This document shows, one piece after another, positions 9,871 to 58,400 of a DNA stretch of 64,000 nucleotides (position 1 is the first letter of the stretch; each line of letters begins with the position of its first letter). Both the position numbers and the translations under genes were made by a program. The notes beneath the pieces were generated by a model. It ran no database searches. It saw nothing but the letters and a program-made list of their open reading frames with translations, and was not told where the DNA came from. Origin of the DNA: Mimachlamys varia (lineage: Eukaryota; Mollusca; Bivalvia; Pectinida; Pectinidae); NCBI GenBank assembly GCA_947623455.1, contig OX392545.1:26363001-26427000 (forward strand), given 5' to 3'.

Positions 9871-12800
9871 TCATAACCTTAAATAACACGTTGTAACTGC
9901 GCCGACTCCACATCCGAAGGAAAGACTTCCGGTTTTATACAGAGAGCACATTATCGTGCTGGTTTCGAATTTCGAGCCAATGCATTCGTTATCAGAGAGA
10001 CATGTGCGTGCGCAGCTTAAAGCGTTGGGCTCCAGCGTAGCCGATATCAACTCTGCGTTTGTGATAGGTCCGGAGACTTTGCGAATGGCAGTGCATATTG
10101 TTTGTTGGCTTGCTGTCGTTTGTGTTGTCGTTTCCATTGGTGTTGTCGTTGCCATTGGTGTTGTCGTCGCCATTTGTGTTGTCGTTGCCATTTGTGTTGT
10201 CGTTGCCATTGGTGTTGTCGTTGCCATTTGTGTTGTCGTTGCCATTGGTGTTGTCGTTGCCATTGGTGTTGTCGTTGCCATTGGTGTTGTCGTTGCCATT
10301 GGTGTTGTCGTCGCCATTGGTGTTGTCGTTGCCATTTGTGTTGTCGTTGCCATTTGTGTTGTCGTTGCCATTTGTGTTGTCGTTGCCATTTGTGTTGTCG
10401 TTGCCATTGGTGTTGTCGTTGCCATTGGTGTTGTCGTTGCCATTGGTGTTGTCGTCGCCATTGGTGTTGTCGTGGCCATTGGTGTTGTCGTCGCCATTGG
10501 TGTTGTGGTTGCCATTGGAGTAGTAGTTGTTGTTGTTGTTGTCGTCACTATTTTTGTCAGGATAACAATGAAAATGAAATATGAATGTACTTAAAAGCCA
10601 AACGAATCTGATACACAGAAGAATTGAAATGTGGTTTGTTAAAACGTGTACAAATAATTAAGGCTAAGTTGTTTGACAACACAAATAAGTTCAAAGGTTA
10701 CTTTTACGAGATATCAAATATGTCTTTTTCTTTTATCAAGTGAGGAATACAAATGACGTTATCTCGATTTCAAACTAGTTCACCGTATCCTAGGCTTTTG
10801 CATCTGGTATCTGAAACTGCATTGTCCTTCCTACCCTGCTATATTGACAAGGTGTAACACTCCGAAAACCGGAAGTGTGGAGTGGTCTATTTGACTTATA
10901 TCAGTATTTACCAGGGCTATTTGACTTATAACAATATTTACCTGGTCTATATGACTTATATCAGTATTCACCTGGTTTACATGACTTATATCAGTATTCA
11001 CCTGGTCTATATGACTTATATCAGTATTTACCTGGTCTACATGACTTATATCAGTATTTACCAGGGCTATTTGACTTATAACAATATTTACCTGGTCTAT
11101 ATGACTTATATCAGTATTCACCTGGTTTACATGACTTATATCAGTATTTACCTTGTCTATATGACTTATATCAGTATTTACCTGGTCTATTTGACTTATA
11201 TCAGTATTTACCTTGTCTATTTGACTTATATCAGTATTTACCTGGTCTATACGACTTATATCAGTATTTACCTGGTCTACATGACTTATATCAGTATTTA
11301 CCTGGTCTACATGACTTATATCAGTTTTTACCTGGTCTACATGACTTATATCAGTATTTACCTGGTCTATATGACTTATATCAGTATTTACCTGGTCTAT
11401 ATGACTTATATCAGTATTTACCTTGTCTATTTGACTTATATCAGTATTTACCTGGTCTATATGACTTATATCAGTATTTACCTGGTCTATATGACTTATA
11501 TCAGTATTTACCTGGGCTATTTGATTTATAACAATATTTACCTGGGCTATTTGACTTATAACAATATTTACCTGGTCTACTGACTTATATTAGTATTTAC
11601 CTGGTCTGCTTGACTTATATCAGTATTTACCTGGTCTATATGACTTATATCAGTATTTACCTGGTCTATTTGACTTATATCAGTATTTACCTGGTCTACA
11701 TGACTTATATCAGTATTTACCTGGTCTATATGACTTATACCAGTATTTACCTGGTCTATATGACTTATATCAGTATTAACCTGGTCTATTTGACTTATAT
11801 CAGTATTTACCTGGTCTACATGACTTATATCAGTATTTACCTGGTCTATATGACTTATATCAGTATTTACCTGGTCTATATGACTTATATCAGTATTTAC
11901 CTGGTCTACATGACTTATATCAGTATTTACCTGGTCTATGTGACCTATATCAGTATTTACCTGGTCTATATGATTTATATCAGTATTTACCTGGTCTATA
12001 TGATTTATATCAGTATTTACCTGGTCTTCATGACATATATCAGTATTTACCTGGTCTACATGACTTATATCAGTATTTACCTGGTCTACATGACTTATAT
12101 CAGTATTTACCTAGTCTACATGACTTATATCAGTATTTACCTGGTCTACATGACTTATATCAGTATTTATCTGGTCTACATGACATATCAGTATTTACCT
12201 GGTCTATTTGACTTATATCAGTATTTACCTGGTCTACATGACTTATATCAGTATTTACCTGGTCTACATGACTTATATCAGTATTTACCTGGTCTATACG
12301 ACTTATATCAGTATTTACCTGGTCTACATGACTTATATCAGTATTTACCTGGTCTATATGACTTATATCAGTATTTACCTGGTCTACATGACTTATATCA
12401 GTATTTACCTGGTCTACATGACTTATATCAGTATTTACCTGGTCTATATGACTTATATCAGTATTTACCTGGTCTATATGACTTATATCAGTATTTACCT
12501 GGTCTATATGACTTATATCAGTATTTACCTGGTCTACATGACTTATATCAGTATTTACCTGGTCTATATGACTTATATCAGTATTTACCTGGTCTATATG
12601 ACTTATATCAGTATTTACCTGGTCTACATGACTTATATCAGTATTTACCTGGTCTATATGACTTATATCAGTATTAACCTGGTCTATATGACTTATATCA
12701 GTATTTACCTGGTCTACATGACTTATATCAGTATTTACCTGGTCTATTTGACTTATATCAGTATTTACCTGGTCTACATGACTTATATCAGTATTTACCT

Positions 12801-15800
12801 GAACTACATGACTTATATCAGTATATACCTGGTCTATATGACCTATATCAGTATTTACCTGGTCTATATGACTTATATCAGTATTTACCTGGTCTACATG
12901 ACTTATATCAGTATTTACCTGGTCTATATGACTTATATCAGTATTTACCTGGTCTATTTGACTTATATCAGTATATACCTGGTCTATATGACATATATCA
13001 GTATTTACCTGGTCTACATGACTTATATCAGTATTTACCTGGTCTATTTGACTTATATCAGTATTTACCTGGTCTACATGACTTATATCAGTATATACCT
13101 GGTCTACATGACTTATATCAGTATTTACCTGGTCTACATGACTTATATCAGTATTTACCTGGTCTACATGACTTATATCAGTATTTACCTGGTCTACAGG
13201 ACTTATATCAGTATTTACCTAGTCTTTATGACTTATATCAGTATTTACCTGGTCTACATGACTTATATCAGTATTTACCTGGTCTACATGACTTATATCA
13301 GTATTTACCTAGTCTTTATGACTTATATCAGTATTTACCTGGTCTACATGACTTATATCAGTATTTACCTGGTCTACATGACTTATATCAGTATTTACCT
13401 GGTCTACATGACTTATATCAGTATTTACCTAGTCTTTATGACTTATATCAGTATTTACCTGGTCTACATGACTTATATCAGTATTTACCTAGTCTTTATG
13501 AATTATATCAGTATTTACCTGGTCTACATGACTTATATCAGTATTTACCTGGTCTATATGACTTATATCAGTATTTACCTGGTCTATTTGACTTATATCA
13601 GTATTTACCTAGTCTTTATGACTTATATCAGTATTTACCTGGTCTACATGACTTATATCAGTATTTACCTGGTCTATATGACTTATATCAGTATTTACCT
13701 GGTCTACATGACTTATATCAGTATTTACCTGGTCTACATGACTTATACCAGTATTTACCTGGTCTACATGACTTATATCAGTATTTACCTGGTCTACATG
13801 ACTTATATCAGTATTTACCTGGTCTACATGACTTATATCAGTATTTACCTGGTCTACATGACTTATATCAGTATTTACCTGGTCTACATGACTTATATCA
13901 GTATTTACCTGGTCTACTGACTTATATCAGTATTTACCTGGTCTACATGACTTATATCAGTATTTACCTGGTCTACATGACTTATATCAGTATTTACCTG
14001 GTCTACATGACTTATATCAGTATTTACCTGGTCTACATGACTTATATCAGTATTGACCTGGTCTACATGACTTATATCAGTATTTACCTGGTCTACATGA
14101 CTTATATCAGTATTTACCTGGTCTATATGACTTATATCAGTATTTACCTGGTCTACATGACTTATATCAGTATTTACCTGGTCTACATGACTTATATCAG
14201 TATTTACCTGGTCTATTTGACATATATCAGTATTTATCTGGTCTACATGACTTATATCAGTATTTACCTGGTCTATATGACTTATATCAGTATTTACCTG
14301 GTCTACATGACTTATACCAGTATTTACCTGGTCTACATGACTTATATCAGTATTTACCTGGTCTATATGACTTATATCAGTATTTACCTGGTCTACATGA
14401 CTTATATTAGTATTTACCTGGTCTATATGACTTATATCAGTATTTACCTGGTCTATTTGACTTATATCAGTATTTACCTGGTCTATATGACTTATATCAG
14501 TATTTACCTGGTCTACATGACTTATATCAGTATTTACCTGGTCTATATGACTTATATCAGTATTTACCTGGTCTATATGACTTATATCAGTATTTACCTG
14601 GTCTACATGACTTATATCAGTATTTACCTGGTCTATATGACTTATATCAGTATTTACCTGGTCTACATGACTTATATCAGTATTTACCTGGTCTACATGA
14701 CTTATATCAGTATTTACCTGATCTATTTGACTTATATCAGTATTTACCTGGTCTATATGACTTATATCAGTATTTACCTGGTCTACATGACTTATATCAG
14801 TATTTACCTGGTCTATATGACTTATATCAGTATTTACCTGGTCTACATGACTTATATCAGTATTTACCTGGTCTATATGACTTATATCAGTATTTACCTG
14901 GTCTACATGACTTATATCAGTATTTACCTGGTCTATATGACTTATATCAGTATTTACCTGATCTATTTGACTTATATCAGTATTTACCTGGTCTATTTGA
15001 CTTATATCAGTATTTACCTGGTCTTTATGACTTATATCAGTATTTACCTGGTCTACATGACTTATATCAGTATTTACCTGGTCTACATGACTTATATTAG
15101 TATTTATCTGGTCTACATGACTTATATCAGTATTTACCTGGTCTACTGACTTATATCAGTATTTACCTGGTCTACATGACTTATATCAGTATTTACCTGG
15201 TCTATATGACTTATAACAATATTTACCTGGTCTACTGACTTATATCAGTATTTACCTGGTCTACAAGACTTATATCAGTATTTACCTGAACTACTTGACT
15301 TATATCAGTATTTACCTGAACTACTTGACTTATATCAGTATTTACCTGGTCTATATGACTTTTATCAGTATTTACCTGGTCTACATGACTTATATCAGTA
15401 TTTACCTGGTCTACATGACTTATATCAGTATTTACCTGGTCTACTTGACTTATATCAGTATTTACCTGAACTACTTGACTTATATCAGTATTTACCTGAA
15501 CTACTTGACTTATATCAGTATTTACCTTGTCTACATGACTTATATCAGTATTTACCTGGTCTACATGACTTATATTAGTATTTATCTGGTCTACATGACT
15601 TATATCAGTATTTACCTGGTCTACTGACTTATATCAGTATTTACCTGGTCTACATGACTTATATCAGTATTTACCTGGTCTATATGACTTATAACAATAT
15701 TTACCTGGTCTACATGACTTATATCAGTATTTACCTGGTCTATATGACTTATATCAGTATTTACCTGGTCTACATGACTTATACCAGTATTTACCTGGTC

Positions 15801-18800
15801 TACATGACTTATATCAGTATTTACCTGGTCTATTTGACTTATATCAGTATGTACCTGGTCTATATGACTTTTATCAGTATTTACCTGGTCTACTTGACTA
15901 ATATCAGTATGTACCTGGTCTACTTGACTAATATCAGTATTTACCTGGTCTATTTGACTTATATCAGTATTTACCTGGTCTATACGACTTATATCAGTAT
16001 TTACCTGGTCTACTTGACTAATATCAGTATGTACCTGGTCTATATGACTTTTATCAGTATGTACCTGGTAAACTTGACTTATATAAGTATTTACCTGGTT
16101 AACATGACTTTTATCAGTATTTACCTGGTCTATATGACTTATATCAGTATTAACCTGGTCTATATGACTTATATCAGTATTTACCTGGTCTACTTGACTT
16201 ATATCAGTATTTACCTGGTCTATTTGACTTATATCAGTATTTACCTGGTCTACATGACTTATATCAGTATTTACCTGGTCTATTTGACTTTTATCAGTAT
16301 TTACCTGGTCTACATGACTTATATCAGTATTTACCTGGTCTATTTGACTTATATCAGTATTTACCTGGTCTATATGACTTATATCAGTATTTACCTGGTC
16401 TACATGACTTATATCAGTATTTACCTTGTCTATTTGACTTATATCAGTATTTACCTGGTCTACATGACTTATATCAGTATTTACCTGGTCTACATGACTT
16501 ATATCAGTATTTACCTTGTCTATTTGACTTATATCAGTATTTACCTGGTCTACATGACTTATATCAGTATTTACCTTGTCTATTTGACTTATATCAGTAT
16601 TTACCTGGTCTACATGACTTATATCAGTATTTACCTGGTCTACATGACTTATATCAGTATTTACCTGGTCTATATGACTTATATCAGTATTTACCTGGTC
16701 TATTTGACTTATATCAGTATTTACCTGGTCTACATGACTTATATCAGTATTTATCTGGTCTATATGACTTATATCAGTATTTACCTGGTGTACATGACTT
16801 ATATCAGTATTTACCTGGTCTACATGACTTATATCAGTATTTACCTGGTCTACATGACTTATATCAGTATTTATCTGATCTACATGACTTATATCAGTAT
16901 TTACCTGGTCTATATGACATATATCAGTATTTACCTGGTCTACATGACTTATATCAGTATTTACCTGGTCTACATGACTTATATCAGTATTTATCTGATC
17001 TACATGACTTACATCAGTATTTACCTGGTCTATTTGACTTATATCAGTATTTACCTGGTCTATTTGACTTATATCAGTATTTACCTGGTCTACATGACTT
17101 ATATCAGTATTTACCTGATCTATTTGACTTATATCAGTATTTACCTGGTCTATATGACTTATATCAGTATTTACCTGGTCTACATGACTTATATCAGTAT
17201 TAACCTGGTCTACATGACTTATATCAGTATTTACCTGGTCTACATGACTTATATCAGTATTTACCTGGTCTACATGACTTATATCAGTATTTACCTGGTC
17301 TATATGACTTATATCAGTATTTACCTGGTCTACTTGACTAATATCAGTATTTACCTGGTCTATACGACTTATATAGGTATTTACCTGGTCTATACGACTT
17401 ATATAGGTATTTACCTGGTCTATATGACTTATATCAGTATTTACCTGGTCTATATGACTGATATAGGTAATTACCTGGTTCCGTATGTTCACATGTGAAT
17501 GGAAAACAGTTGCTGGGATGCATTTGAGTCCATCCTACATCATCTGCCGTTAAAGCACGATAGGGCCCAACGGAATTGTAGCTATTAAATCGATGACCAT
17601 TCACGATAGGAGTCAACACGAGTTTATCAACCCATTCCCACACCGAATTAGTTAGATCTAACTCCAAGCCCATCCAGAACTGTGTCGGCAGGCTATTGGC
17701 TGAAAAGTAGAAAAAACGAAATTTATGTTCGAAAAAAACCTATAAAAGACAATAACTGGTCTTTGAAAATTTGAATCGAAATTTATATCAGAAAACCCCC
17801 CAGATATAAACATCATCTGAATACCGAAAATCTTTGAGAGTATTGTTGCGCTCACCGAAGAGAAGGAAGGGGGACATAACCACGAGTTTCAAGTCAGATA
17901 ATTACATACTAATGTTATGCTTTCACTTGATTTTTGGTGCCAATACAGCGTTTTCCCAATTAGGTCATGATGATTAAAGGGCCATACATCGAGTTCAGAG
18001 GTCGATAGAGAATCGTTATTTCGAAGGTTTATATCGAAAGAGCAGGGTTATATCGATTGAGACTCGTTATACCGAGTGGGATCTGTTATATCGAGGGAGA
18101 TTTGTTATATCGATTGAAACTCGTTATATCGAGTGGGGTCTATTATATCGAGGGAGAGGCGTTATATCAAGGAGACCTGTCATATCGATTGAAAATTGTT
18201 ATATCGATTGAGACTCGTTATATTGAGTGGAGTCTGTTATATGGAGGGAGATCTGTTATATCGGGTGGGGTTTGTTATATCGATTGAGACTCGTTATATC
18301 GAGTGGGGTCTGTTATAACGAGGGAGAGGCACTATATTGAGGGAAAGGCGTCTTCTCGAGGGAGGTGCATAATATTGAAGAGAGCTGTTATATCGAGGTA
18401 AAGGCGTTATACTGCAGTAGGTTTCCACGTTTTTGGGTAGCTTTTAACCCGTAGGGTTCTACCTCTTTTATCTTGGGACGGCTGGCGACTCTCCTTGTAA
18501 AATTCCTCAAACAAAATACACGAAATTTCAACGTCGCTGATTATGCTGTGTTTGATAAAATGCAACAATTTTACACAAGCAAATTGGGTATCAAAGGAAA
18601 GAACAGATATTTTTTCTACTAACCTACACATTTCATCATGTCACAGAAGTTCGTTAACTAAATGTCGTCACCAATTTATAAACAAGAGGTCAAACAGGCC
18701 CGCATCTGGAATTAATCTAGTATTTGTTACCTTCTAAAGAACACGATATTTAAACATTGATGCCCCGATAACATTGAAGGTTTGTCAAAGTAGTTTTTAT

Positions 18801-21800
18801 TGATGCAAAATGCTCGACGCCTTTCAAGGAAGCTTCCAGTCAAATAGTATGCTTCTATGCCGTTTGGTTAATCAGAAGATGGAATTTAAAGGTCTTTACA
18901 TATTTTAACCCCATAACTTTGAATATGAGTCAATGTCATTTCATTTCGCACAAATTGTCGGGCTTCATCCAAGGAACCTTTCAGCCAAATACAATACTTC
19001 TAGGCCTATTGGTTAATCAGAAGAAGTCGTTTAAATATTGTAACATAGTTGACCATGTGCTCTTGAATATGGCTAATGGTCACATCTTTTCGCGAAATTT
19101 GTCGGGCTACAACCAAGGAACCTTTCAGCCATATACTATGCTTCTAGGTCTTTTGGTTTATCAGAAGAAGTCATTTCAATATTTTAACATAGCTGACCCT
19201 GTGATCTTGAATATGGCTAAAGGTAATTTCTTTTCCCAAAATCTGTCGGGCTACAGCCAAGGAACCTTTATAATGCTTTTATGCTCTTTGGTTATTAAGA
19301 ACATGTCGTTTAAATGGAAAAGCTGACGCCGGACGGACGACGATCAACGGACGGACAGACGGACGCTATACACTGGGCCTTTCGGGCCAGATTGGCAAAC
19401 ACTAACCAGATTCTAGACATACGTTTGAAATTGGCCGCGTCGCGAGATCTCACGATTTTTTTATTTGAACCCTCTACTTTTGACCAGGTGACATTATATT
19501 TTAGACGACGGTTTATTACTTACTTGTAAGCTGTTGATACAACCATCCCTGTTCAGCCGCAGTCTCCAGGTGAACCAGGTGGGTATTTGCCTCATTTTCA
19601 CAGGTGGTCTTTGCCGTGATGTAAATTGCACACTGACTAAACACGGCATAGCTCTTCCCGTTGCTTTGGTCGTAGATCATTTGCGCGTTCGGCATGGAAA
19701 ACCCAACTACACACCCGACCCAGGCCAGAAGTACTGGCAGAGTGGTACATATGCTGTGGAAACAATTTTGTTAATTTTTTCCAATATTAGCTGTGCATGA
19801 AAGCATATTGCTGCCACAACAGTTATTTTATAATTCGAAATTTATCATCATCATCATCATCGTCGTCGTCGTCATCATCATCATGCAGCTGTACCGTTAC
19901 AAGTTATCATCATTATGCTATTCAAAATGTAGTTGTGTTCATTTTTTAACCATTGAATCTAATACAAAGTTAACGGGACTGTGAAATAAATGCTCAATTC
20001 TTTGTCTCATTTAGTACAAAAAACGTGAAAAACATAATTAATTTTCTGAGCAGTACTATTTTGGTACCGATATAAATATCACAGGTTTGTTTTCCTCCAT
20101 GTTTTCAAAACTATCGTTTGTCTTTTTTACAAGTTGGTTTTTGTCTTAACAGTAAACGTATAAATATTGCTTATTTATACGACATGACTAAATGAGTAGC
20201 CAAAGCATGCGTCAAGTCTGTTTGTACACAATTATGAAATATAATTGGTTAAAATTAAACTATGTTGCTTGGAAGAAGATTCAATGGAAAAAAACATGAA
20301 ATTATCATTCAACCATGAAAACATTATTAAAATTATATTAAACCTTTAATACATCCCATGAATTTAACTGCTGAGTGCAAAGAGACGAATGCAACCATAG
20401 TGAGTACATGTATACTTCCATAATGGCATGGGTGGGGGGGGGGTCCATTTATATCTACATTTTGACGATGGCTTCCCATTACCTCAGTGTTAATCTGGCC
20501 CCAGTTTCATCACGGTTCCTTATCTTAAGGATGTACACCTCTGAGAAGTCAAAATTTTCCTGTATCAAACTTTTTTTCTCATATACATTTTTGGATAAGG
20601 GAGTTCAAGGCATGCCAGAAAATTCAAAGACAATGATATGTCAGTGTGATCATTTTTGAGCTATGATCGGTCAAACATACCAATATGACATAATAAGCAG
20701 TTTTAAGTGAATTTTAAGGTTTTGACCAATCGCGGGACATCTTCATACAATATCTTCCGAATTTGTGATCCAAAATGTATGAAAGTTAGCAGAAATGACA
20801 GTGTTTTCTTTTAAGTTATGGAAGTACAATTTCTCTAACTTTATATTTTTACTCAGGAAAGCAATTTGAGTTACCCCTACCCCTTATTTTTTAATGAGAA
20901 AATTATCATTTTTTCACCATTTTTTTGCAGATTAATCGCTTAATAAAAAAAGTTCTGATATCAAACTTTTTTTGATATTTAGCGTAAGAAAAGAAACTGG
21001 GTTTCTCTTTCTAAAACCGTCATAAAAATAGGGGGGTTAGTGTGCTTAATTTTTTGTCCCTGTATTATTTGTGTTATTTTTCAGTTTTGTGTTCAAAAAT
21101 AAAAACTGCTCCAGTTACAATAAATATATGAGAAAAATACTAAAATTGTATAATTATCCACTTTATAGCATAATATTTCTATGAAATTGAACATTATAAA
21201 TTTGAAAAGCAAAAATGAGCTTGCTATAATTATAAATGGCTAAACACTGATGTTTTAAAGAGAGCGATATAGCATCAAAAAGGTGAAATTTTGGCCTTTC
21301 GCGAAGTGCATAAAATAGACAGAAATACGCATATTCAAAATGGCCGCCAAATTGGTAATTTTTTAAAACTCATGTAAAAAAATTCTACAAGCAACAGACA
21401 CTTACATTTTTGACACAATTTTCAGATGCATATTTGCTATTAAAATTGATACTAATTTCTTCAATATAACAAAAAATCTTTAAATGAGACAGAAACGAGA
21501 CTTGAACGTGACTGAAACCTCAGATGTGTACATCCTTAAACAATCTCCAAAGGCAAGCATTACAGAGGAAAACCTTAAGTTAACGAACGTTCCTTAAATT
21601 CTGCAATGCTTTCCTATGGATATATCTCAGCTAATGAATTTCCTAAAGTGAAGGAACGTTAATGCAAGCGGGGCATGGACTATATTTACAGTAGTATAGA
21701 TGGAGTCCGGACCATCAGACAATAGAATGACGTCATGTTGGCGCCATGTTGACCTACGTTACGTCAACGCTTTGCACGTCGCCTCTGATAACACGCGTTA

Positions 21801-33768: not shown

Positions 33769-36700
33769 TCAAACAGTAAAAAGAACACACATTCCTTTGA
33801 TGTCGTCGTATTGCATTTCCGAACATGAATTGACATTTAAACAAAGCCTTGCGCACCTAATGGCTGATGACGTCATTACTACGTTATAGACACGATCGTT
33901 GTTAGCAGGGTACTCCTGTCGGTGAAACGATCGGCAACTTTGGTCACATGACGAATTACGATTGAAAAATGCGTAAATTGGTCCTTCGGCGGATGGTGTA
34001 GACATCGTCGAAGACGCGGCAGCTGTAATTGTTGCTGATGAGAGCGTGGCAGTAGCTGCTGATAGCGAGGCTAATGCTTGTACAGTCATTGTCTCGGGAA
34101 ATCCCGTTGACACAGTTGGTGATTGAGGAGTCACATCAGGTGTAAAAACAAGGCTGGTTTCTGTTGCTGTCGAAGTATAATCAAAGGAGGAAAACGAAGA
34201 GGAGTAATGGTCAGCTGACGATGGAGAAATAATAGCAGGGGACATGTAGGAACTATTTAAATCCGGTGTATTATTAAAGGAGGAATTACTTGAAGGTGGC
34301 GTAGTGATAATCGTAGACGTTGTACTATGGCTGAGGGACGTACTACTTTCCGAAAGTAAAGAATTCAAGGTTTGAGTGTTTGAATAAGAAGACATTTTTG
34401 AAAAAGGAACTGAACTAACAGAAGGTGAGGAAATACCTGTTGTCAAAGATGACAAACTCGGAAACAGAGTTGGATTGATAGAGGCTGAGTTTGCGTCTGT
34501 ATCAATGGGGGTTACACTCGGAAACAGTGTTGAATTAATAGATAATGAATTTGTGTCTGTGGTCATGGAGGATGAACTTGGAAATAGAGATGAATTAAAG
34601 GCGGCTGATTCTGTGCCCGATGTCATGGAGGATAAACTCGGAAACACTGTTAAATTGATAAAGGCTGAATTTGTGTATGTTGTCATGGAAGATAAACTCG
34701 GAAACAGAGTGTAATTCATAGAGGCTAAATTTGTGAGTGTTGTCGTGGATGAAATGTTAGAAAAAATAGTTGAATTAATAGAAGCTGAATTTGCGTCTGT
34801 TGTCATGGAGGATGAACTTGAAAACAACTTAGAAGTAATAAATGGTGAAGCTGTGTCTGTTGTATTGGAGGATACACTAGGAAACAGAGTTGAATTCATA
34901 GAGGCTGAATTTGTGTCTGATGCCATGGGGGATGAACTCGGATTCAGAGTTGAACTAATAGAAGCTGAATTTGTGTCTGCTATCATTGAGGATAAACTCG
35001 GAAACAGAGTTGAATTAATAGAAGCTGGATTTGCGTTTGTTGTCATTGAGGATAAACTCGGAAACAGAGTGGAATTCATAGAGGTTAGATTTGTGTATGT
35101 TGTCATGGAGGATGAACTCGGAAACAGAGTTGAATTCATAGAGGTTAGATTTGTGTATGTTGTCATGGAGGTAGCACTCGGAAACAGAGTTGAATTAATA
35201 GAAGCTGAATTTGCGTCTGTTGTCATGGAGGATAAACTCGGAAACAGAGTGGAATTCATAGAGGTTAGATTTGTGTATGTTATCATGGAGGATGAACTCG
35301 GAAACAGAGTTGAATTAATAGAAGCTGAATTTGCGTCTGTTGTCATGGAGGATAAACTCGGAAACAGAGTTGAATTAATAGAAGCTGGATTTGCGTCTGT
35401 TGTCATTGAGGATAAACTCGGAAACAGAGTGGAATTCATAGAGGTTAGATTTGTGTATGTTGTCATGGAGGATGAAATCGGAAACAGAGTTGAATTAATA
35501 GAAGCTGAATTTGCGTCTGTTGTCATGGAGGATAAACTCGGAAACAGAGTTGAATTAATAGAAGCTGAATTTGTGTCTATTGTCATGGAAGACATACTTG
35601 GAAACAGAGTTGAATTAAAAGAGGCTGTTGAATTGATCAGGGAACTATTTGTTGGTGGAACTGTACTCGAGGCTGTCGTGGTTTCAATGGTAGACTGAAC
35701 TGAAAAATAGAATCGAAATTCGTTAAATACATTGATCATTATTAACTCAAACAAATATGATACATTGCTACATACATTTGAAGCATAATTATGTTCCATA
35801 TAATGACGGCATAATGATAATATCATTTGGCTCTAGAACAGCGTGGTTTTCCACATATTCACAAAACGTTTATACTATTTGAAAACAAGAAATGTTCTCA
35901 TCTCGCTGTTAGATTATGAGACTCAAGATGATTTTTTTTTATTTCATCTCATAAGCTATCAATTTAAAAAAAAAAGATACAAAAAGCAAACGCAATGGCA
36001 GCTTAAGTTGGAAGCGCAGGGTTCAAAATTGAAACGACAGTTGTGGTATCGCACAACGTTACACGATGTGCGGTGTGCGCACGATGAGTGAACGGTGTGT
36101 ACACGGTGTGGGCACGATGTGAGAACGATGCGATCCTGGGCGATTATTTCTTACCCACAAGTAGGCGCACGATAATCTAACATTGTGCGGTGACAATCGT
36201 GGTCGGTGTAAATTGAGAAATGCTTAACAATATATACGGTCTAGTGCTAGTTGTTTTAAGCTTATTTCTACAATTTATCTACATACATAAGCTGATCTTT
36301 CTATGAAAATTCATCTTCAAATTGGAGCTGGACTTTTGGTAGTTTTTTTTTAAACAAACCAAATAGACACTGTCAACTTTAAACACAAACTAACATGTTC
36401 TCATTCAAGTTAACATTAGCGTTTTTTTTACCAAGTTATACCTGTATATAGAGCATATATTTATACATCTGTGGCCCGGGACACTTATACATAACTTGCC
36501 TTTGTGTAAAACACAGATGATTGAAGGGGTTGGGTACAAATAACAACATTGCTCATTATAAGCGGCGATTTCTGCTTTCATAACGGTCACACGTTAGCCA
36601 TCGCGATTATTAGCCGTGGCGTTGCCAAAGACCAAGCAAAACTCCGGCATGTAGTTTTTATTTACCTGTTCTGTTTTGTTACCTGGGAGCTAAACATGTC

Positions 36701-39700
36701 CTTGACTGTCTTATGGTCACTGAAATACAGTTTATTGTATACTGTAAAATTAACATGATCCCAATTAATATGATGATAATTTACTTAGTGTTTCGACAAG
36801 AGGGTTCCGTATTATATGTATCGACCAACTATACAAAATCGTGCCTGAGTGCGATGAAAATCGCACACATGAACGCACGATCTTTAGATTGTCCAGCTGT
36901 ATGCACCATGGGCGAACGATGTGTGAACGGTGTGCACGATGTTCGCACGATGAACGCACGGAATTTTTAGTGCGTTGTGCCTTACCACAACAATTTCACA
37001 TGGCTGATAAGTCGTATTACATTAACTAATATGACTGGGTGGCATCACTAAATAACACATTACATATTATAAATCCTAAAAATATGAAGTCGAACATCGT
37101 CATTTGAAAATCGACGGAACCATGTGAAAACTTCTAGTTATCCGAGTTGAGCGAGATCTATTCATTGGTATGAAATATAGCCGGGACCGATCAGATACTT
37201 AGAACTAAACGTGATTTTCGAATTATATAAGTTCGGGATAACGGGATTTGTCTGTATCATAATGATGAATGCAACAGATGATTGATATTCAAACAAGTTT
37301 ATACCATTCCATGTAAACCACGCCAAAAATGGCTCAGCTAGAATATCATAGCCAAACTCGGGCACTGACATTCGATTCACTTACTTTCGGTTTCGCATAT
37401 AAAATTCCGTAATTCTGTTTTCGCTGATGCCTTCCACATGCCGTATTCGCTGTATGCGTAGAGTTCTGGAGTAGGCGTGGTCCATTGGTCAAAGTTGGAC
37501 TCGTTCATTGGCTGAGTAACGTTGTCTGGATACACCCAGTACCAATTGTCGGCAACATAATTTCTCCTGAGGCCGATCCAGTAATTATTGGTCAACGATA
37601 ACTCTGTTAATAGATTTAAACATTATGATTGTCTCTTGTTACACCTTAATAATTAAGGAATACGATCATTTACCATATTGTAATTATATGTCATGTCATA
37701 TTATGATGTCAACTACACCAATGGATGTTAAATAAACACAACTTAAATTTATCTCCAATAAACCCAAATGGACAACCTGCCTTTAAATAGAAATTGTTAC
37801 AAGAAATCGAGAAAATCGACATATATGTTGTGGAAGTAAATAAAAGGCTTTAAAACGAGATCGCCTTTTTCGTATTATGTTAGAGACTGTCATTTAATTG
37901 AAAAAGGCCAGCAGGCACCAGTGATACATATACCTAGTAAACGGCCAGATTATTTCGCAATTACTGTATATATGTAAGGGAAGTAACTCTGATGTAAGAT
38001 CATGCTGAACTGTATTTTACAGATTTCCAGTATGAGATAAAGACCATCCACTAAAGATGGATATATATAAACGAAATAGAATTCAACATCGACACTAGGG
38101 GCCAAATATGAACACAAGAAGTGATTGCACGAATACATTTGAAAAGGTAAAAGATAACAAGACCATATGTTCTGGAAGTGTAAGCGACTGCTACTTTATC
38201 GACGCCACTTACAATGTTCATCTGTAAGTCTAAGTGTCATTCGAGCTAATATCACGTCCTCAAAATGAGAAGTGAGGTACTATGTTCAATTATAGCAACT
38301 TAGCATACAAATGATCATATTCGTTTCATTTTCAAGAAATTTAACATCAGTCCTTTCCTAAATGTCGATTTATCATGCAAAAGCAATATTCCTGTGTGGA
38401 TAAAACGACGTAAACATTTCGTATATAAGTTGTAGGATTATTAGCATGGGTACTAATAAAAAAACCAATTTGGGACGGCCTACGAGCTCTACTGTAATAA
38501 AGCAATCAAACCTGGAATTACTAAAGTACCACTGTTGTTATATGTTTACTTGGAAACGACCAAGATTTACATGGCGGGTGTCGTCGATGAAGCAGAAGAC
38601 GCTTACTCTTCCGGAATATCTGGTCTGATTTTCTTGTACTTTTCAAGAATAGTTGTGCTAATTTGTCTTTTGTTAATTTTTTTATCTCTAGCGTAGTAGC
38701 TTTTGATTTCAGATTATGGTCTTGTTCATGCTTTCAGTACTATCTGATGTTTTTGGTCCTTTATTCATTATATGTGTAGTTCGGATTATGTTTTTGTTGA
38801 CAATTCGGAATTCGTTATTGTTTTTTCTCACCTCCAAGTAGAGTTGAAAGCCAAGTCCATTCAGTACTCGACTCCAAATTGATCACGTGTGTGTTAGGGT
38901 AGGACTCACAGACTCGAATGGCAGTGTCAATGTCAGATATGTCCGACATGTAGTTGTAAACATTAGTCCCTTGGCTCTTGTAGAACGTGGCTGATGTATT
39001 GTCAAAGCAGTATCCGTAAAATGGTGCACCTGTTGAAAACAAACATGATCAACATAACTATAATGATTGTATTCTTTGAGATATCACAATTTTCCCGACT
39101 GCTAAAATAGCAACATTTGTCTTCCAAACATATTTATCTCTCAAATAAACATCTTAAATTTGTGGACACAATCGAAACAAGCCAATTTAATCAATTAAAA
39201 CAAATTCAATATAGAAAACAATTTTTAATTTTTCAAAAAGTCGACCTCGGTCAAAGTATTTTGACATTTTTAACGATATCATTGCAACGTAACTACCCTT
39301 AACTGTTTCCCTTAATTGGTAACAAAAACTAAAAACGTTAGAAATAACTATGATTAATTTTGAACTCATCATTCATATTACTATTTTTCTGCATGAGCAG
39401 TCACTTTCAGATACCAGATATCAAATAAAGCAATTCAGGCTTAATTGTTTACATGAAAATATTCAAAATATTTATTATGGTGACGTAACAACGAAGTTAT
39501 GGTTGCTAATGACAATGTTCATATTTACCTTCGGTTTCACAAACAAAAGGTAGAATTGAGGTGTTCTGGTATGACATTATATTTCCATACGCTGCCACTG
39601 CTGTGTTGTATGGCTGAGTAGGAGAACTCCAGCGGTCTGTTAGGTTGGTTGCCATGGTGCTCGAACTGCCAGATACCCAGTACCAATCTGAGGTATTGTC

Positions 39701-42381
39701 TACAGCCTTCTCCAAACCGATCCAGTAGTTTCCAGCGTTCATACCGATACCTACGGGGATGAGTTTAGAATAATTAAGTAACTACCATCCTCGATATCCA
39801 GGAATGTCATGTACGTTCACCTATACTATCTACATCGATGTAATAAATCATGGAAAAACTGAAGGCACGAAGATAGCAGTTTGATTAGTTTCAGGTAAAA
39901 AAATCCCTGAGCAATATCTAGACTGAAGCCTGTTCTTTAAAGATTACAAAAGAGCAACAACCGACTTCAAAGCCTGTCCAGTTTTACCATGATGTGACCG
40001 GGAAATTCTTTTTATATACATGAAAAGTTCTAACAAGTCGTCTTGCCTCATCAACAAGGTGTGGCATACAGGTCCTAGAATTATTGACATGACATTTTAC
40101 AGGGGTGTAGAGGGTAATATGAACGTAACTCCTAGATATCCAAGATAAGCTACTATATTTACCAACCTTTTTGTAAGATGCCTTTTTAATGCGATCTATT
40201 TTGTACACCAGTACCAACATATCTAACATAAACAATGAAATGTTTTATAGAATAGAAGTAATCATAACACAACCAGTAGGAGGTTAAGTGTGACGTTTCT
40301 ATGACAACGCTGTCAACGTCATCAGCCATTAGGACGTATGAAGTGTACGAAGTTGTAAGGAATTGACCGCTCATTTATCATGAATATTCCTGTGTAGAAA
40401 ATAGTGTGACGAGATGTTATAAACCGTTTACAAGATGGAAGCATTGTATTGTAGTCGATTCGGCTACATAAAACATAACAATTTTACTATTTGTGTTAAA
40501 ATAACTTCTATTCAAATGGCATTATCAACCCGAAGAAAATAAATGTTTTTTTGTACAAAAAAAGAGAGAAATGTGTGTTGCTTAAACTATGTTTAAGACC
40601 ACAAACAGTAGCATAGACGTGTCATTATTATGACGGACAGTAAGTAAGGATCGTGATTATGTAAATATGGACTGTTTATGTATTTGTTGGAATACAGAGA
40701 TAGAAAATCGAAGTACTAATATTTTAAAAAACGGTTTCTATTCCTCTTTTCTTATATATGTGTATATGTATAACAACGTCATAAGTTATAACTTAATTCA
40801 TATTAATTCATACCCCCCCCCCCCAAAAAAAATCCCTCCTTCATATGAATGGTACACATATATGTAATAAGTAATTGATATCCACTGGAAAGCGGTAATA
40901 ATTTAGGCTGTTCTACTGTACGTGTTATAACATCAGCTTACTCATAAACTTGGTATATAGCCAGGCTTGTTCTGAGGCCGTCTCTAGGTGAACGACATAG
41001 CCCCCAACTGTCTCCTCACACCGTGACCTTGCTACCGAAAGTGTGACGTCATTTATCATATTTCTATGGTAACCGCGGTCACCACTGCAGAACAAGATGG
41101 TGGTATTTCCAACCAGATGCTCTGTAAAAGAAAGGTGAAAATACAATATTATTGTTTACGTCAATTTTATCTTACTTAACGCTGATTTGATTTGTTTTAG
41201 AAAGTGTAAATTTACTTACTATGTGATAAAGAAAAGAAAGAAAATGGAAGGGGTAGTAAGCAAGGTGCAACCACAAACATCCATACATAAATAGTTGAAT
41301 AGGATACTTAAACACAAGAACATGGCCTTATTCTCTTGTACATTTTCAAAGGTATCCATTTACATATTTCCCTTGTTCATATTTTGCCCCTAATTTAATC
41401 GATTTTGAGTTTGGATTATGGTTTTGTTGACGGGTCGATATTCATTATTTTTTTTTTACTTTATAGAGCGTATCAACAATAACTTTCGATCATGTCTAAT
41501 CATCTTCATTTCTCAAATCCACGGCTGCGCGTTTGCTTGCTAGTATGCGGTATCAAACATGAAAAGCGTCATTAAATAATACTCACCATAGAGAACAACA
41601 TTTAGATATAAACATTTATAGAAATAAGGGACAAGTTGATATCCAAAGGATACCCACTGTGAACAAAATAAAATCTATAAACATAGTCAAAACACTCCAA
41701 TCTGATTAAAATGTAATTACTTTCCGTTACTTAAGGATCTGACAACATCTCATAAATGGTCATGTTCTGATGACATTTGCATCCTCTGTTCTTCATATTC
41801 AAGAACTGCCTAACTGATGATGTCATCTGTAGGAAGAAAATACGTCATGACAGGAAAATTAGCCTGTTGTGACGAAATGGAAACGCACATTTATGATTAT
41901 GCAAGCTTTTTCGTCTACCAACATTCCCCTTGTAAGACCCTGTAAGCGGTGATTTGATTGGTTAACGCAAAGATTCACCAGAACATGGACCTTTATTGGA
42001 TGTTGTCAGATTCTACGTATACAGAGAGGTACGGAGCGACAATTAGATCTGCATCTTACATGGCGGGTGTCGTCGATGAAGCAGAAGACGCTTACTCTTC
42101 CGGAACACCTGGTCTTATTCTCTTGTGCTTTTACCGGAGTCTCCATGTAAATATTTCCTTTCTTCCTATTTTGCCCCTTGTTTAATCGATTTTGAGTTCG
42201 GATTATCGTTTTGTTGACGCTTTGGTATTCTCTGATTTTTTTAAAAATCAGATTGATAGTATTTAATAAGATTAAAAACAATTAATATCCTCCTCAGACA
42301 CCTACCGTGGGGAGCAACCACTGTCTGGATCAGGACGAATATTAAACCAATCAGCGTAGAGATGACTTCCAATAGGCTCAT
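33769..42381 (-). CDS. Secreted protein with two C-type lectin domains, Ser/Thr repeats and PAN-like domain
   Basis: Six exons give 941 residues: 42306-42381, 40942-41121, 39529-39750, 38832-39029, 37385-37603 and 33769-35699. Every intron is phase 1 with GT-AG ends. Exon 1 encodes the signal peptide (MSLLEVISTLIGLIFVLIQ...). Exons 2+3 and 4+5 each make one lectin domain, with YVVHLETASEQAWLY, NYWIGLEKAV and FVCETE in the first, and HVINLESSTEWTWL, NYWIGLRRNY and FICETE in the second. Neither shows EPN/QPD or WND, so ligand binding is unclear. The last exon encodes about 18 twenty-residue units of the type STLFPSLSSMTTDANSASIN, probably heavily O-glycosylated, followed by a Cys-containing PAN-like domain (IRCARLCLNVNSCSEMQYDD). 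The layout matches the gene at 9871-22191 with one lectin domain added. An extracellular immune or mucosal role is inferred. Confidence 0.83.
34430..35630 (-). repeat. 60-bp coding minisatellite (Ser/Thr-rich stalk)
   Basis: About 18-20 units of 60 bases are in phase with the exon, each encoding variants of STLFPSLSSMTTDANSASIN. Units in the centre (35000-35600) are the most alike and alternate between subtypes, showing recent block duplication. The plus-strand open frame here is a shadow. Confidence 0.9.
36030..36150. repeat. GCACGATGTG-type short repeats, first cluster
   Basis: Imperfect repeats of CGCACGATGAGTGAACGGTG-like sequence, related to those at 36840-36965. Both lie in the intron upstream of the mucin/PAN exon. 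Confidence 0.55.
36840..36965. repeat. GCACGATGTG-type short repeats, second cluster
   Basis: GAACGCACGATC, GGCGAACGATGTGTGAACGG, TGCACGATGTTCGCACGATG and GAACGCACGG follow one another. The two clusters may be the ends of one inserted element of about 0.9 kb. Confidence 0.5.
38070..38290 (-). repeat. Diverged repeat A copy
   Basis: Minus-strand ATAAAGTAGCAGTCGCTTACAC and flanking blocks match repeat A with many changes. Confidence 0.55.
38540..38830 (+). repeat. Repeat A copy reaching the lectin exon donor
   Basis: Contains GATTTACATGGCGGGTGTCG and TCGATGAAGCAGAAGACGCT. Its end abuts the 3' edge of exon 38832-39029, so the insertion lies right beside the splice donor. Confidence 0.8.
39783..40150. 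repeat. Possible short transposon fragments
   Basis: TCGATATCCAGGAATGTCATG and ACGTAACTCCTAGATATCC resemble the block at 58620-58690 (GCGTAACTCCCCTGATATCG). Ends cannot be fixed. Confidence 0.4.
41315..41460 (+). repeat. Truncated repeat A
   Basis: Begins within TTATTCTCTTGTACATTTTC and ends GATTTTGAGTTTGGATTATG. Confidence 0.7.
42045..42250 (+). repeat. Well-conserved repeat A copy
   Basis: TTACATGGCGGGTGTCGTCG through CTCCATGTAAATATTTCC, then GATTTTGAGTTCGGATTATC. It lies in intron 1 of the two-lectin gene, just after the signal-peptide exon. Confidence 0.85.
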
Positions 42382-49400: not shown

Positions 49401-52400
49401 CAGTATCATAAAATCAGGGATTCAGTCGTATTGTGACACTGTATACTCCAGAAGTGGAATTAATGGGATGTGGATTTTGAAAAACTCGAAAGATTTTCTA
49501 TCAAAACATTTGATTTTTCCACCCTGTACACTACCATACCTCATACAAAATTGAAGGAACGTCTCCGATCTCTTGTTATGAAAGCTTTCTTTTCCAAGAA
49601 AGGCGGACGACGATACAAATATATGGTAGTTAGCTATCATGGAGCGTACTTTGTCAAAAACACGACAAAAGCTAAGAGGAAATATACTGAAGAAGATGTA
49701 GTAAGGATGATTGAATTCCTTATCGACAACATTTTTGTTGAGTTCGAAGGAAAGATTTTCCAGCAGACTGTTGGCATTCCCATGGGAACAAACTGTGCCC
49801 CACTCTTAGCTGACTTGTTTTTGTTTTCATACGAGGCTGAATTTGTGGAGGAGGTAACAAAAACCTTGCCAAATCTTTTAATTTCACTTTCAGATACATC
49901 GCCGATGTGTTGTCTATAAACAACAAGAAGTTTGCTGACCACGTCGATCGAATGTACCCTTCTGAACTTAAAATAAGTTCTAAAAACGAGAACAGAGAAT
50001 CATTGTTAATCTCAACAAGTAAACACACTAATGATTTTACTTAAAACGTCCATCTTCATATCACTTAAAGATACAGAATATTTCTCAAAGAGACAAAGAT
50101 GGCGACCATAAAACTTGCCAATAGTTCTGATCAACCTGCATCTATCGAATCCTTGTGTTGTGAGTTTGTTTGTTAGCAGTGGACATCGATATAGAACATC
50201 ACGATACCTAGAGCAAGCCCTAGACTATCGAATCAACTGCAACATGTAAACACCATAGGTTGGAGAAGCAGGGTTGTTACATTTAAGACATGGAAAGATC
50301 CCGATCGGAAAATTGAAATCATCACTTTATCGTATAACTTAGTAGTAGGCTTTCCATGTCGGTCGAAGTTTAAGTAGAGATCGAGGTAAGGAGCTGATGA
50401 AGATGAGTCTGTTGTGTCCTTTAATTCAAGTTCAGAAAGGTATATACGAGCGACGTGGTCCACAAATCAGTACACTGTTATTATGCCGATTGGAAAAATA
50501 AGTATTCAACTCTCAAACTTACTTCAACAGTGAAACCAGCGTTCCGCATCTTTGTTCGGAACCGCTTGGTGTTTGATTGGAGCTTTATAACGAGGTCCTG
50601 GTTAGCTATCATCAGGTCTAGTGCCTAAACGAAATACGAGAGTAACAACATAGAACTAGTAACATCAGATATAGTGTTAATGTGTTATAACTGTGTCACG
50701 CTTGTAACGAATATATTATGAACTATATACTTTATTATGTAGGCAGCGATTAGATTAAAATACGCGTTTATCTATGAAATAATCGCATCCATACCAAGAG
50801 TTATAAACTAACATTTGAAAATTTCGATTTCCACCTTTTGGCCCCTAGCATCACTGACGAGTCCTTCAGGACGAAACAGCTGTATGGTGCAATACAATTT
50901 CTTTTTTCGGCATTATCTATCACGAAATTTACAAGGTGCATGATGTGCGTATGAAAGATAACACAACACACACATATGCTGCACCTTGTGTATGTTACGT
51001 CATCTATTAAGTTGAGGAAAGTGAAAAGTAACAATAATTTGGATTAGTTGTTTATGACGATCACCTTCCGTCCGTTATGCTCAAACAATACCATCCAGAA
51101 ACAGTTTTAACTGTCATCTAAGCTCATTGTATGTAATGACAGCCTATTGAGGCAAAGGGTAGCACTCATTATTGGCCAAAAGGTTGGAATCGATATTTTC
51201 GATATTAATAGACAGAAAGGTTAGTACGTTAAACCTTTTTAATTAATGAATAAAGAAAAACAAAATAGTACTTACCTTGTTAGCACACGCCACAACTACA
51301 GGTGCTAATGCATTAGAGTATACATAAGGCTTCGACCTCTGACGAAGCAGACTGATCAGTTGCTGTGGCCCCGTTGTGTATCCACCTTATATACACAAAG
51401 CAAGATGATATGATTAATATATAAGAATAACAAGAAAATGTTAATTTTAGGTAGTAATGCAGGCAATATTTTAGTGTAATCAGATGTTAAAAATTAAGAA
51501 GTTGGTTTTATGAAAATATGTCATACCTGTCGTATTTAGTGTAGTAAATGCATTTTTGGCGAATTCTTATGTAAACTTTCCACGGTTGTGCATTTGGAAC
51601 ATTTTGTTTATAGTGAGGTATCGTTCGTCCCATTTACAAGAATAGCACTACAGGTAAAACCAACTTTGAAAATTAAGAAAGATCCGCGGACACCACTTCT
51701 CAGATAACAGGGAGAACATTCCACCTGGGTACATTTGTATCACAATGTAGCATGTACAACTTTGGACCGAGGAGAACCTACACAAAATGGAAGTTGAATA
51801 AAGATATTTCTTGCAGTACTTCTAAAAAATACAGTAATGGCAATTCTGAACTGTCGCTTTTCATTTATCGGGTAGCCTGAACACGATAACAAAACAATTG
51901 CTGGTAAACGGAAGAAAAGCCGATGAACCATGAACAAAGGATGGTTGAGGAGCGCACATTCTGAAGCTAGTCTGCTGACAAACGATATCTTTTAAAATGC
52001 TCTTAGCTTATTTAGCCTACCGTATGAAAGACTGGCAAGTAATGTATGTGTCAGAATGCGAATATGTCATTAGAATAAGTTGTATTTGAAATTAAGATAT
52101 TTAAATTTTTTGTGTTAGTTTTGCTATTGAACCAATAATTTTAATCTTATCGGAAATATATTGCAGGGCATCCATCATATCCGCCATCGCACCTTATCAA
52201 ATTTACTGACCCTCTATGACTCTATAGAGTGTCAGTAAGTGATTATATAACGAATTTATCGCATCGAGGGTCCTTTCTACATACACTTAATAGAAACAAC
52301 ACTTGCATCATCAGTAATGTCGTTCATTGTATATAACAAAACAACTAAAATACTAAACATAAACTCTATATTTGCTTTTTGTTTGTTTTTCTTCATATGT

Positions 52401-55400: not shown

Positions 55401-58400
55401 ACACTTTAAAACTCTCGATTGTTCTCCAAATGTTAGTAAAGAATACATGTAGCCTGATACAATGCAAGCATAGCGATCCGTTATTATACCTACCTTTCAT
55501 GTCGCGGTGTTTGTATAATAGTTTATGTGCGTTAGACAGACGAATTCCGTTAAAGATTGAAACATGGCTCAATTCGTCTGATATCACAGCGTCCTCAGGA
55601 CCAAACAATGCCTCGAAGATCCCCGCGTTTGCGTCGTAACCATTGGCGTATAAAATGGCGTCTTCACGCCCGTGAAAACGGGCAATTTTCTGTTCTAACT
55701 CTACGTGTAGGTCCTATTGAATTGAAAAAATAATTTATGATTTCTATGTTAAATATTATCATATCATAATCATTATTAATCAGAACTTAACGGCCTATCA
55801 ACATCAGACAGGTGATTTTCGGCCAACAAGAGCAAAATGTAAAACAAAATGAAAGCTTAAGACAGCATCGATTTGAACAAGAGCTGTAGCTCGCCTATGC
55901 ATATTGCATTCAGTATAGTGACACAGTCTAATGTCGGGGATTGTATTGCATATGGTTCCTACACACTAATGTGGCTTTTCCTTACGCATTGATTGTTAAC
56001 AATTTGGATACGACTGATCAATCTCGTCAAAACGCCTCTCTCTGAAGCTTGGTTGTCATCCGCTGACTTATGCTTTAATAGTATGTTGTTTGTTATCTTT
56101 GTAATGATTTTTATTAAATTAACGCGGTATTTGATGAATATGTTAATACAGCAGTTTGAAATCAGCAAAATGATTTTCAAAATCAACAAGTGGGGAAAAA
56201 AATCCACTATTATGTGAAAGTAATAGTGTTGCTTGCCTGGTACCTGAACACAACCGATTTCGAGGTAATATTATATACTACTATTAAGATAAGGATATTC
56301 TTCAATTATTTTGCTAGGAGCTGTGTAGAACATATATATTCACAATACACTAACATTAATAACCTCAGCTTCTGCAAAAAATGTGCATGGGGCAGTTGGC
56401 ATCCAACAGTAGCATATTTCGCTTTGTTTTTTTATATATTAACATTTGCGCCTAGCGGGCTTCATTCAATATGGATAAACCAGCTTACCTTTCATAGCAC
56501 TATGAAAGTTAAAAAATGACTTTCAATCCTTATGTAGTTCTTATTAAATATACACGTATGTAGATTATGTTTTGAAGTATGTATAACATTATGGTTTATT
56601 TTGACGTTCAACACACTTATCGAGAAAATCAGAAGTATCCCTTTTTTTTAAATAAACGTCGATTTTTTTTTTCAAAACATTCGTCTTCCGAAAACCTTTG
56701 TTTATACTTACAGTGGTACCGCAGATATACCGCGCAGAGCTGACACCTGACCCTGTGGTTTGTAAGGCTCTTGTGCCAGCTTTTATGACCTGTGGGTGAC
56801 TCTGTTAATAATATTAAACGCACACAATTATTCCAAAATGTAGTCATAAAATGTTTTTTATGACGCTTTTTAGATGTCAAAATCAATATCTACTTATATG
56901 ATTAATCTTTCGTCCAACAGAATAACGACCATAAATAAAATTATAATATTTTTTTGACATTCACTGAGAATTTATGTCAACGTAATTTGAAATGTCTTGT
57001 AACTTCTATCAGGGTATAAATACACAAAAGTGCATTGTTTCTACGAAGTTAATATTCTCTTGACACAAAACTGTTTTTGATGCAAAAACGTACAGAGCAA
57101 AAGAGGAGATAATTGGTACTGAATTGAAATCATAGACACTACAGACTGTTCCACATAAGTTGTTTACCGCGATCGTATTTTGACATTAAAGGGACTAAAT
57201 AGATGATAAAATTCATGGTTAAAAAAATCGTATTTAACGCAACCTTTCCTGAAAATAAATCATAAAACTTACACTTTCAGACAATACCACAAATTCAAAT
57301 TTTCGGAAAAACGCTGCTAATAATTACTCTTAAGTATCGTCAAAGAATTATTCGACTCGTTGTAATTCATATATTACCTTTCGTTAACACGCCCTTGTCC
57401 CATCCTACCCAAGCGCATGATTCAAGCACATGGCGGACAGTATATATACGTACCAGTACACAAAAGGCCGAAAACGAAATTATGGCCAATGACAGTAAGT
57501 TTTACTATGGAATCCTGTTGATTTCAAGAATTATGATGGTAGTGGGGTGGTGGACCTACCATTTATGCAAAATGCGAAATTTCATCCCCGAAGGCATCCT
57601 CGATATTCAAGGGTTACAATCACCTACCCTCTCCAACCCCATACATATGCCATACTGAAGGCACGCTTGAGGAAAAATACCTTACCAATCACTAAGCTGA
57701 TGCAGTTTAATTCATTTTTTCGGCATACTGTATCTATAACTAAATTTAAGAGGTGCAGCATATGTGTGTGTTACGTCATCTTTATGATAGGGGGTGGCAG
57801 ACTCTACTGGTGGATTTTTTAGTCCCCGAGGTTTGCTGGAGCCTACATAGCCACAGTTAATCTCATTTGAGTAGTGGCACGGTACATGATATACACATTT
57901 TCGTAGTACACGATTTGAAATTATACAGAACTAGTTTAATTTTACTTTTAAATTAATAAATTAAAGGGGTTTTACGCACCTGACCCTTCTGCTTCTACAT
58001 CAGTTTAGAAATTTTGGATTCCTACCTTTTGGCCTCAGCATCACTGAAGAGTCCTAGGAGGACGAAACAGCTGTATGATGCAGTTTAATTCATTTATTCG
58101 GCATACTGTATCTATAACTAAATTTAAGAGGTGCATCATATGTGTGTGTTACGTGATCTTTATGATAGGGGTGGAAGACTCTGCTGGTGGATTTTTTAGT
58201 CCCCGAGGTTTGCTGGAGCCTACATAGCCACAGTTAATCTCATTTGAGTAGTGGCACGGTACATGATATACACATTTTCGTAGAACACGATTTGAAATTA
58301 TACAAAACTAGTTTAATTTTACTCTTAAATTAATAAATTAAAGGGGTTTTACGCACCTGACCCTTCTGCTTCTACATAAGTTTAGAAATTTTGGATTCCT

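Follow-up and report, generated by a model that had tools for sequence, protein, structure and literature searches.

How can an exon keep its 5' splice site when the first base of the following intron is also the first base of a satellite array? The question is raised by a 64,000-nucleotide stretch of DNA from the bivalve Mimachlamys varia (contig OX392545.1 of GenBank assembly GCA_947623455.1, positions 26,363,001 to 26,427,000; the whole stretch is called the window below, and coordinates are counted within it). On its minus strand lies a predicted gene, likely encoding a lectin, one of whose introns consists almost wholly of a 30-bp tandem repeat with the sense unit GTAAATACTGATATAAGTCATGTAGACCAG. 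I propose that this minisatellite, which starts where the 5' splice site of a lectin exon is predicted, grew out of that site, that its first copy is the working donor, and that the other 219 copies go mostly unused. I hold this account to be probable, if only modestly so.

A 30-bp array at the edge of an exon

There is first the matter of size and register. Tandem Repeats Finder (TRF) assigns positions 10883-17479 a period of 30 nucleotides, 220.1 copies, and 93% matches, and a walk along the array counts 220 units, the first starting at 17474 and the last at 10911. The first-pass annotation of this DNA, which had counted some 220 copies of a 30-base repeat, was right on this point, the copy number being one that depends on the assembly. 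The predicted intron (10548-17474, minus strand) is 6,927 bp long, and 6,592 bp of it, or 95%, are array. Unit 1 (17445-17474) begins at the first intron base, exactly at the predicted donor, GTAATT. The array overlaps the last five bases of the exon as well, since exon and unit both end in ACCAG. The exon runs out as ...GAA CCA G|GTAATTACC, and 30 bases on one meets GACCAG|GTAAATACTGAT. The same annotation had taken the real donor to be the outermost unit of the array, and the position of unit 1 at the exon edge supports this for the donor predicted here. It had also described the donor-like sequence as recurring at 30-base steps in perfect register with the true one. The next copy does lie exactly 30 bases on, and the register is exact across the first 62 unit starts and near-perfect overall, but it is not perfect throughout: 213 of the 219 steps are 30 bp, five are 29 bp, and one is 28 bp.

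Nearly every unit looks like a donor, as had been claimed: 213 of the 220 retain GT, and 181 have CAG|GTAAAT without a change. The units take 59 distinct forms, the modal form occurring 75 times, a variant with A at column 22 occurring 39 times, and the others making up the remaining 106. The two most distinct are unit 1 and unit 47, each three changes away from the nearest other unit. A unit's mean distance from the consensus is 0.68-1.1 between units 81 and 180, as against 1.1-1.95 for the bins of 20 units to either side. The distinctness of unit 1 and the divergence of the flanks are as expected for the edge of an array, or for its seed. No array-wide higher-order repeat was seen (the best lag gives 6 matches, and 300 shuffles gave a mean of 4.38 and a maximum of 7); units 60-64 form a block of five that comes back 16 units further along. 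The predicted donor sits within a perfect 10-base palindrome at 17466-17475, GGTAATTACC, which the modal unit lacks (GGTAAATACT).

How might such an array arise? The first duplication would have come from slippage between ACCA(G) at the end of the exon and ACCA(G) 30 bases on, and unequal exchange would then have enlarged the array and homogenised its interior. Most arrays that touch an exon are expected to wreck its donor. This one may have been tolerated because gain or loss of units in register still leaves CCAG|GTAA at the edge. That a donor stands at the edge after in-register slippage follows from the sequence, and it may also be why the array has survived.

A mobile origin would be a different matter. 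Elements of the Helentron type, known as HINE, scatter satellite-like arrays in oysters, as a passage in PMC7492417 describes, and the array might be the core of such an element, inserted at the donor. There may be a likeness, in that an array of short units is closely followed by a putative hairpin. A short one is predicted immediately behind the final unit (10857-10878, minus strand; fold of -8.8 kcal/mol), and the same passage places a palindrome in the right flank of HINE elements, inside a segment of ~60 bp after the last repeat. However, the left module of these elements, a subterminal repeat plus a microsatellite, is impossible here, where a coding exon adjoins unit 1. The insertion site differs too, since HINE elements are described in that source as preferring T-rich sites, whereas the edge of the array is CCAG|GTAA. 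Nor does the unit match any other part of the window over more than 11 bases. An insertion of this kind strikes me as highly improbable. The 3' flank of the array also has no repeat elsewhere in the window, and a search of that flank for decayed units gave nothing above shuffles: over 330 bp, 86 of 300 did as well, and over 90 bp, 151 of 300.

Donor strength and the predicted choice among donors

The units of the array are middling donors, off the consensus at position +5. By the energy of the duplex with the 5' end of U1, the predicted donor has a value of -8.1 kcal/mol, the modal unit -8.3, and the full consensus -14.0. In the array, sites that equal or exceed the modal unit occur 28 times per kb; in the rest of the window the figure is 0.51 per kb and strand. 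How often would a unit come to hold such a donor by chance? When 30-bp units drawn at random from the window are made tandem, 70 of 6000 (1.2%) hold a donor that at least equals the modal unit on the same measure, a test that was picked after the array had been seen. Of the other arrays that TRF lists in the window, six were judged by their consensus units on both strands, and none of the six has such a donor. Taken together, these two results make an independent origin of unit and donor unlikely.

It does not follow that the donors are being kept. The first-pass annotation had GTAAA preserved in almost every unit despite many other changes, and the counts contradict it. Among the 213 full-length units, the GTAAA columns have 4.6 changes per column and the other columns from 6 to 27, without columns 21 and 22, have 4.45. 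Only if those two very variable columns are included do the other columns average 10.6 changes. Among 55 distinct units the figures are 3.0 and 3.0. Special conservation of GTAAA is ruled out, the donor columns varying as much as the others, and there is no sign in the array of selection on the motif.

This bears on the idea that the array is a working platform for U1, kept since its hundreds of U1 sites raise inclusion of the exon, prevent premature polyadenylation, or retain the transcript at the chromatin. The idea draws on the high density of strong donor-like sites just given, on a donor that U1 bound downstream can enhance, according to a passage in PMC5933811, and on the complete absence of both AATAAA and ATTAAA from the 6.6 kb of sense array, where 7.5 and 8.0 instances would be expected from the rest of the strand. 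The absence of these hexamers is a trivial result of repeating one unit, however, and rarer variants are present (TATAAA three times, CATAAA six times). With donor columns no more conserved than the others, there is no visible selection on donors, and I judge a platform maintained for its function to be very unlikely. On the account proposed here there may be a more modest effect: the weakish GTAATT donor may gain from U1 bound to neighbouring copies, given that a donor can be used more when U1 binds just downstream of it (in the case described in PMC5933811). The further copies may strengthen the donor in this way, or they may do nothing. One may go further and imagine a donor turned satellite, in which the array copies, feeds, and repairs its source donor, has supplied the final codon of the exon, and forms a 6.6-kb platform of about 200 U1 docking sites that would keep the first donor in use despite slippage. 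So extended, the idea is quite unlikely.

What would the gene make of so many donors? Use of the donor at unit 1 gives CEHTEP-V-TTTT, and use of that at unit 2 (17415-17444, minus strand) would add ten residues in frame, GNYLYQSYRP. Unit 2 also holds an in-frame TGA, and donors 3 to 6, those that were computed, all meet it. Donors further in would also hit it, because their exon would include unit 2, and retention of the intron gives the same short tail as do the donors beyond unit 2. Donors deeper in the array would thus yield a shortened lectin or a decayed message. The same TGA bears on the notion that the array is itself an exon, encoding a decapeptide repeat. Long open frames do run along it on both strands, up to 823 amino acids, but a 30-bp unit free of stops stays open at any copy number, and the lectin frame stops in unit 2. 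A coding repeat is rejected in the lectin frame and is scarcely credible in general.

Which donor, then, would be used? The introns that flank the exon are 1,824 and 6,927 bp long. With both introns long, exon definition would favour the donor nearest the upstream acceptor, so that unit 1, or unit 2, is picked. In human genes, exons between long introns prefer the upstream donor when strengths are similar, as reported in a part of PMC9225289. An exon-centric rule of this sort, applied to the gene with the array and its near-equal donors, would point to unit 1, perhaps unit 2.

The gene, its neighbour, and the age of the donor

The exons of the gene that carries the array are predictions, resting on frame, splice motifs, a domain match, and a homologous gene nearby. 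Of a C-type lectin domain, the exon adjoining the array (17475-17699, minus strand, 225 nt, phase 1-1) would encode the second half, and the first half would come from an exon at 19524-19753 (minus strand), which also provides a likely signal peptide, judged by eye; its donor is CAA|GTAAGT and its 5' limit is a predicted acceptor. The two exons jointly make one predicted domain. Beyond the array intron is the predicted last exon (9871-10547, minus strand), with a Thr-rich 18-bp repeat (TTTPMA), a PAN-like domain, and a TGA stop. Both exon joins are in phase 1. The protein obtained by joining the predicted exons by hand passes the Pfam model PF00059, Lectin_C (29.3 bits versus a cut-off of 22.6, E = 1.5e-06). 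The PAN model (PF00024) stays under its gathering cut-off, with 16.1 versus 21.4 bits, and the domain can be called PAN-like only. By itself, exon 17475-17699 had no match in the Pfam search, and a search for protein homologues of its 74 amino acids found none. The 261-residue joined protein drew 381 candidate homologues, none of them at E <=0.001. Among solved structures a single match fell below 0.001, a chain of NKG2-D (2.8e-4, built from two stretches of 2.5 each), and a further 18 matches have E values up to 10, of which 16 belong to lectin-like molecules and the remaining two do not. The gene is likely an animal lectin gene.

The gene is rich in repeats besides the one that concerns us. 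The exon after the array intron itself holds a coding minisatellite (10122-10545, 18 bp x 23.6, encoding TTTPMA or TTTQMA), so that coding and non-coding arrays lie side by side. The upstream intron contains two further arrays, at 18047-18327 (19/38/57 bp) and at 18825-19269 (144 bp). The 19-bp array of that intron contains GATATAAC, which loosely resembles GATATAAG of the 30-bp unit.

Is the donor older than the array? A gene on the same strand, from ~41.1 to 33.8 kb, has the same plan: its lectin domains are split, one exon is a Ser/Thr-rich repeat, and its end is PAN-like. It is likely a tandem relative of the gene with the array. Within it (33772-41121) lies a 60-bp coding repeat of ~20 copies, at 34437-35627. 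Its first-half lectin exons are matched by tblastn with E values of 3.2e-07 and 0.002, and its second-half lectin exons are taken as homologous also by their order, phase, and motif. The latter two, at 39529-39750 and 37385-37603 (both minus strand), end in TGT GAA ACC GAA G|GTAAATATG and TGC GAA ACC GAA A|GTAAGT, respectively, with their predicted donors at the matching phase-1 position. In codons, the end of the exon next to the array is TGT GAA CAT ACG GAA CCA G|GTAATTACC. The homologous exons end in the same phase, just past the last C-E of the domain, and one of the homologous sites has GTAAAT as its predicted donor. TRF lists no array in the 1,685-bp intron after exon 37385-37603. Since the phase is the same and the position matches within two codons, the donor position probably predates the array.

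An alternative view is that of capture: an array that was born, or had inserted, at another place in the intron came to the edge of the exon, where one of its units replaced an older donor and gave the exon its CCA codon. The exon next to the array has two codons more than either homologous exon (TGTGAACATACGGAACCAG versus TGTGAAACCGAAG), and its final ACCAG is that of the array; the array may have overwritten the end of the exon. It also fits this view that the donor of the modal unit is slightly better than that of unit 1. But capture requires that a unit held a strong donor by chance, which was the case in 70 of 6000 random units, and in addition that it joined the exon in exact phase. Unit 1, moreover, is among the two most distinct units of the array and no fresh copy. 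I consider capture unlikely, though well worth weighing. The first-pass annotation had the array apparently growing out of the gene's own donor, and this stands as the best reading, because the predicted donors of the neighbouring homologous gene lie at the matching phase-1 position. As to the direction of growth, from donor to array, I infer it.

Several observations weigh against growth from a donor that is still in use. By U1 duplex energy, 185 of the 219 other units are slightly better (-8.3/-8.4) than the predicted donor (-8.1), and 34 are worse. Strength counts for much in PMC9225289, where the stronger donor is used in 86% of events and the downstream donor in ~60% before strength matching. 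Unit 1 would therefore win only if position decides among near-equal donors. The exon edge and the first units fold better than shuffles (z of -2.41), and by local folding each of the 20 donors tested is predicted to have low openness, the highest value being that of unit 2 (0.109; unit 1 has 0.032). The second-half lectin exons of the neighbouring gene match weakly when taken alone (tblastn E of 0.31 for 39529-39750 and 0.068 for 37385-37603). Of the homologous introns, that at 39528 is weakly like the unit, ranking 7 of 634 GTAA sites for the modal unit, the site itself counted, and 26 of 634 for unit 1; it tops the 36 GTAAATA sites for likeness to the unit, and its likeness is matched by 31 of 300 shuffles over the first 60 bases and 34 of 300 over the whole intron. 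The intron at 37384 has no likeness to the unit (rank 266 of 634; shuffles 249 of 300 and 82 of 300). Finally, the exon beyond ACCAG bears no trace of a unit, shuffles being as good in 248 of 300 cases for its last 60 bases and in 113 of 300 for the whole exon.

Precedents and wider meaning

There is a smaller human precedent for a minisatellite that supplies donors. Turri, Cuin and Porter are said to have described in 1995 a minisatellite of the gene IFI6 that provides several splice donors. As a minisatellite of this type should, the array of M. varia starts at an exon-intron border (a predicted one), and its units carry donor sequences in register with the exon. The genes are unrelated, and the IFI6 unit is ~12 bp in some tens of copies, whereas here 220 copies of 30 bp fill the intron. 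In IFI6 (also called 6-16 or G1P3) splicing from two downstream units of the repeat brings the number of mRNA species to three, as a passage in PMC4526556 reports. Use of the units as donors has thus been demonstrated in IFI6; here it would be limited by the in-frame stop in unit 2, which would leave one alternative productive donor. By analogy, the array may work like the IFI6 donor minisatellite on a larger scale. A donor array of this size was not found in the open-licence literature, where most subscription papers are absent.

Introns formed by duplication of AGGT (the Rogers model, ATP2A1, and the 24-bp repeats of fission yeasts) are another point of comparison. In fission yeasts, multiple tandem 24-bp duplications that contain AGGT form introns, according to a passage in PMC4974935. 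Here too the units run from GT to AG, and every intact border between them reads AGGT. The array intron is not new, however, the neighbouring gene having a predicted intron at the matching phase-1 position. Nor is the duplicated segment exonic, for exon and unit have only the five bases ACCAG in common. The U1-dependent enhancer downstream of PAH exon 11, described in a part of PMC5933811, resembles the array in that a U1 site lies just inside the intron beside the donor, but it is one intronic region, as against 219 repeated further sites here, predicted from sequence.

Four other open reading frames of the window had no match in Pfam, and the window had none in Rfam. An open frame at 49464-49919 on the plus strand contains words like those of a reverse transcriptase; it has no Pfam match. 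A 377-bp unit is repeated 2.2 times at 57698-58537 with a 97% match, likely by recent duplication.

The choice of a donor among equal sites is an old question, one to which rules of proximity and of exon and intron definition have been applied. The array would offer a ladder of some 200 near-identical donors at 30-base steps, each with a readable outcome. It also suggests a route by which an intron may grow from its very first bases without harm to the gene.

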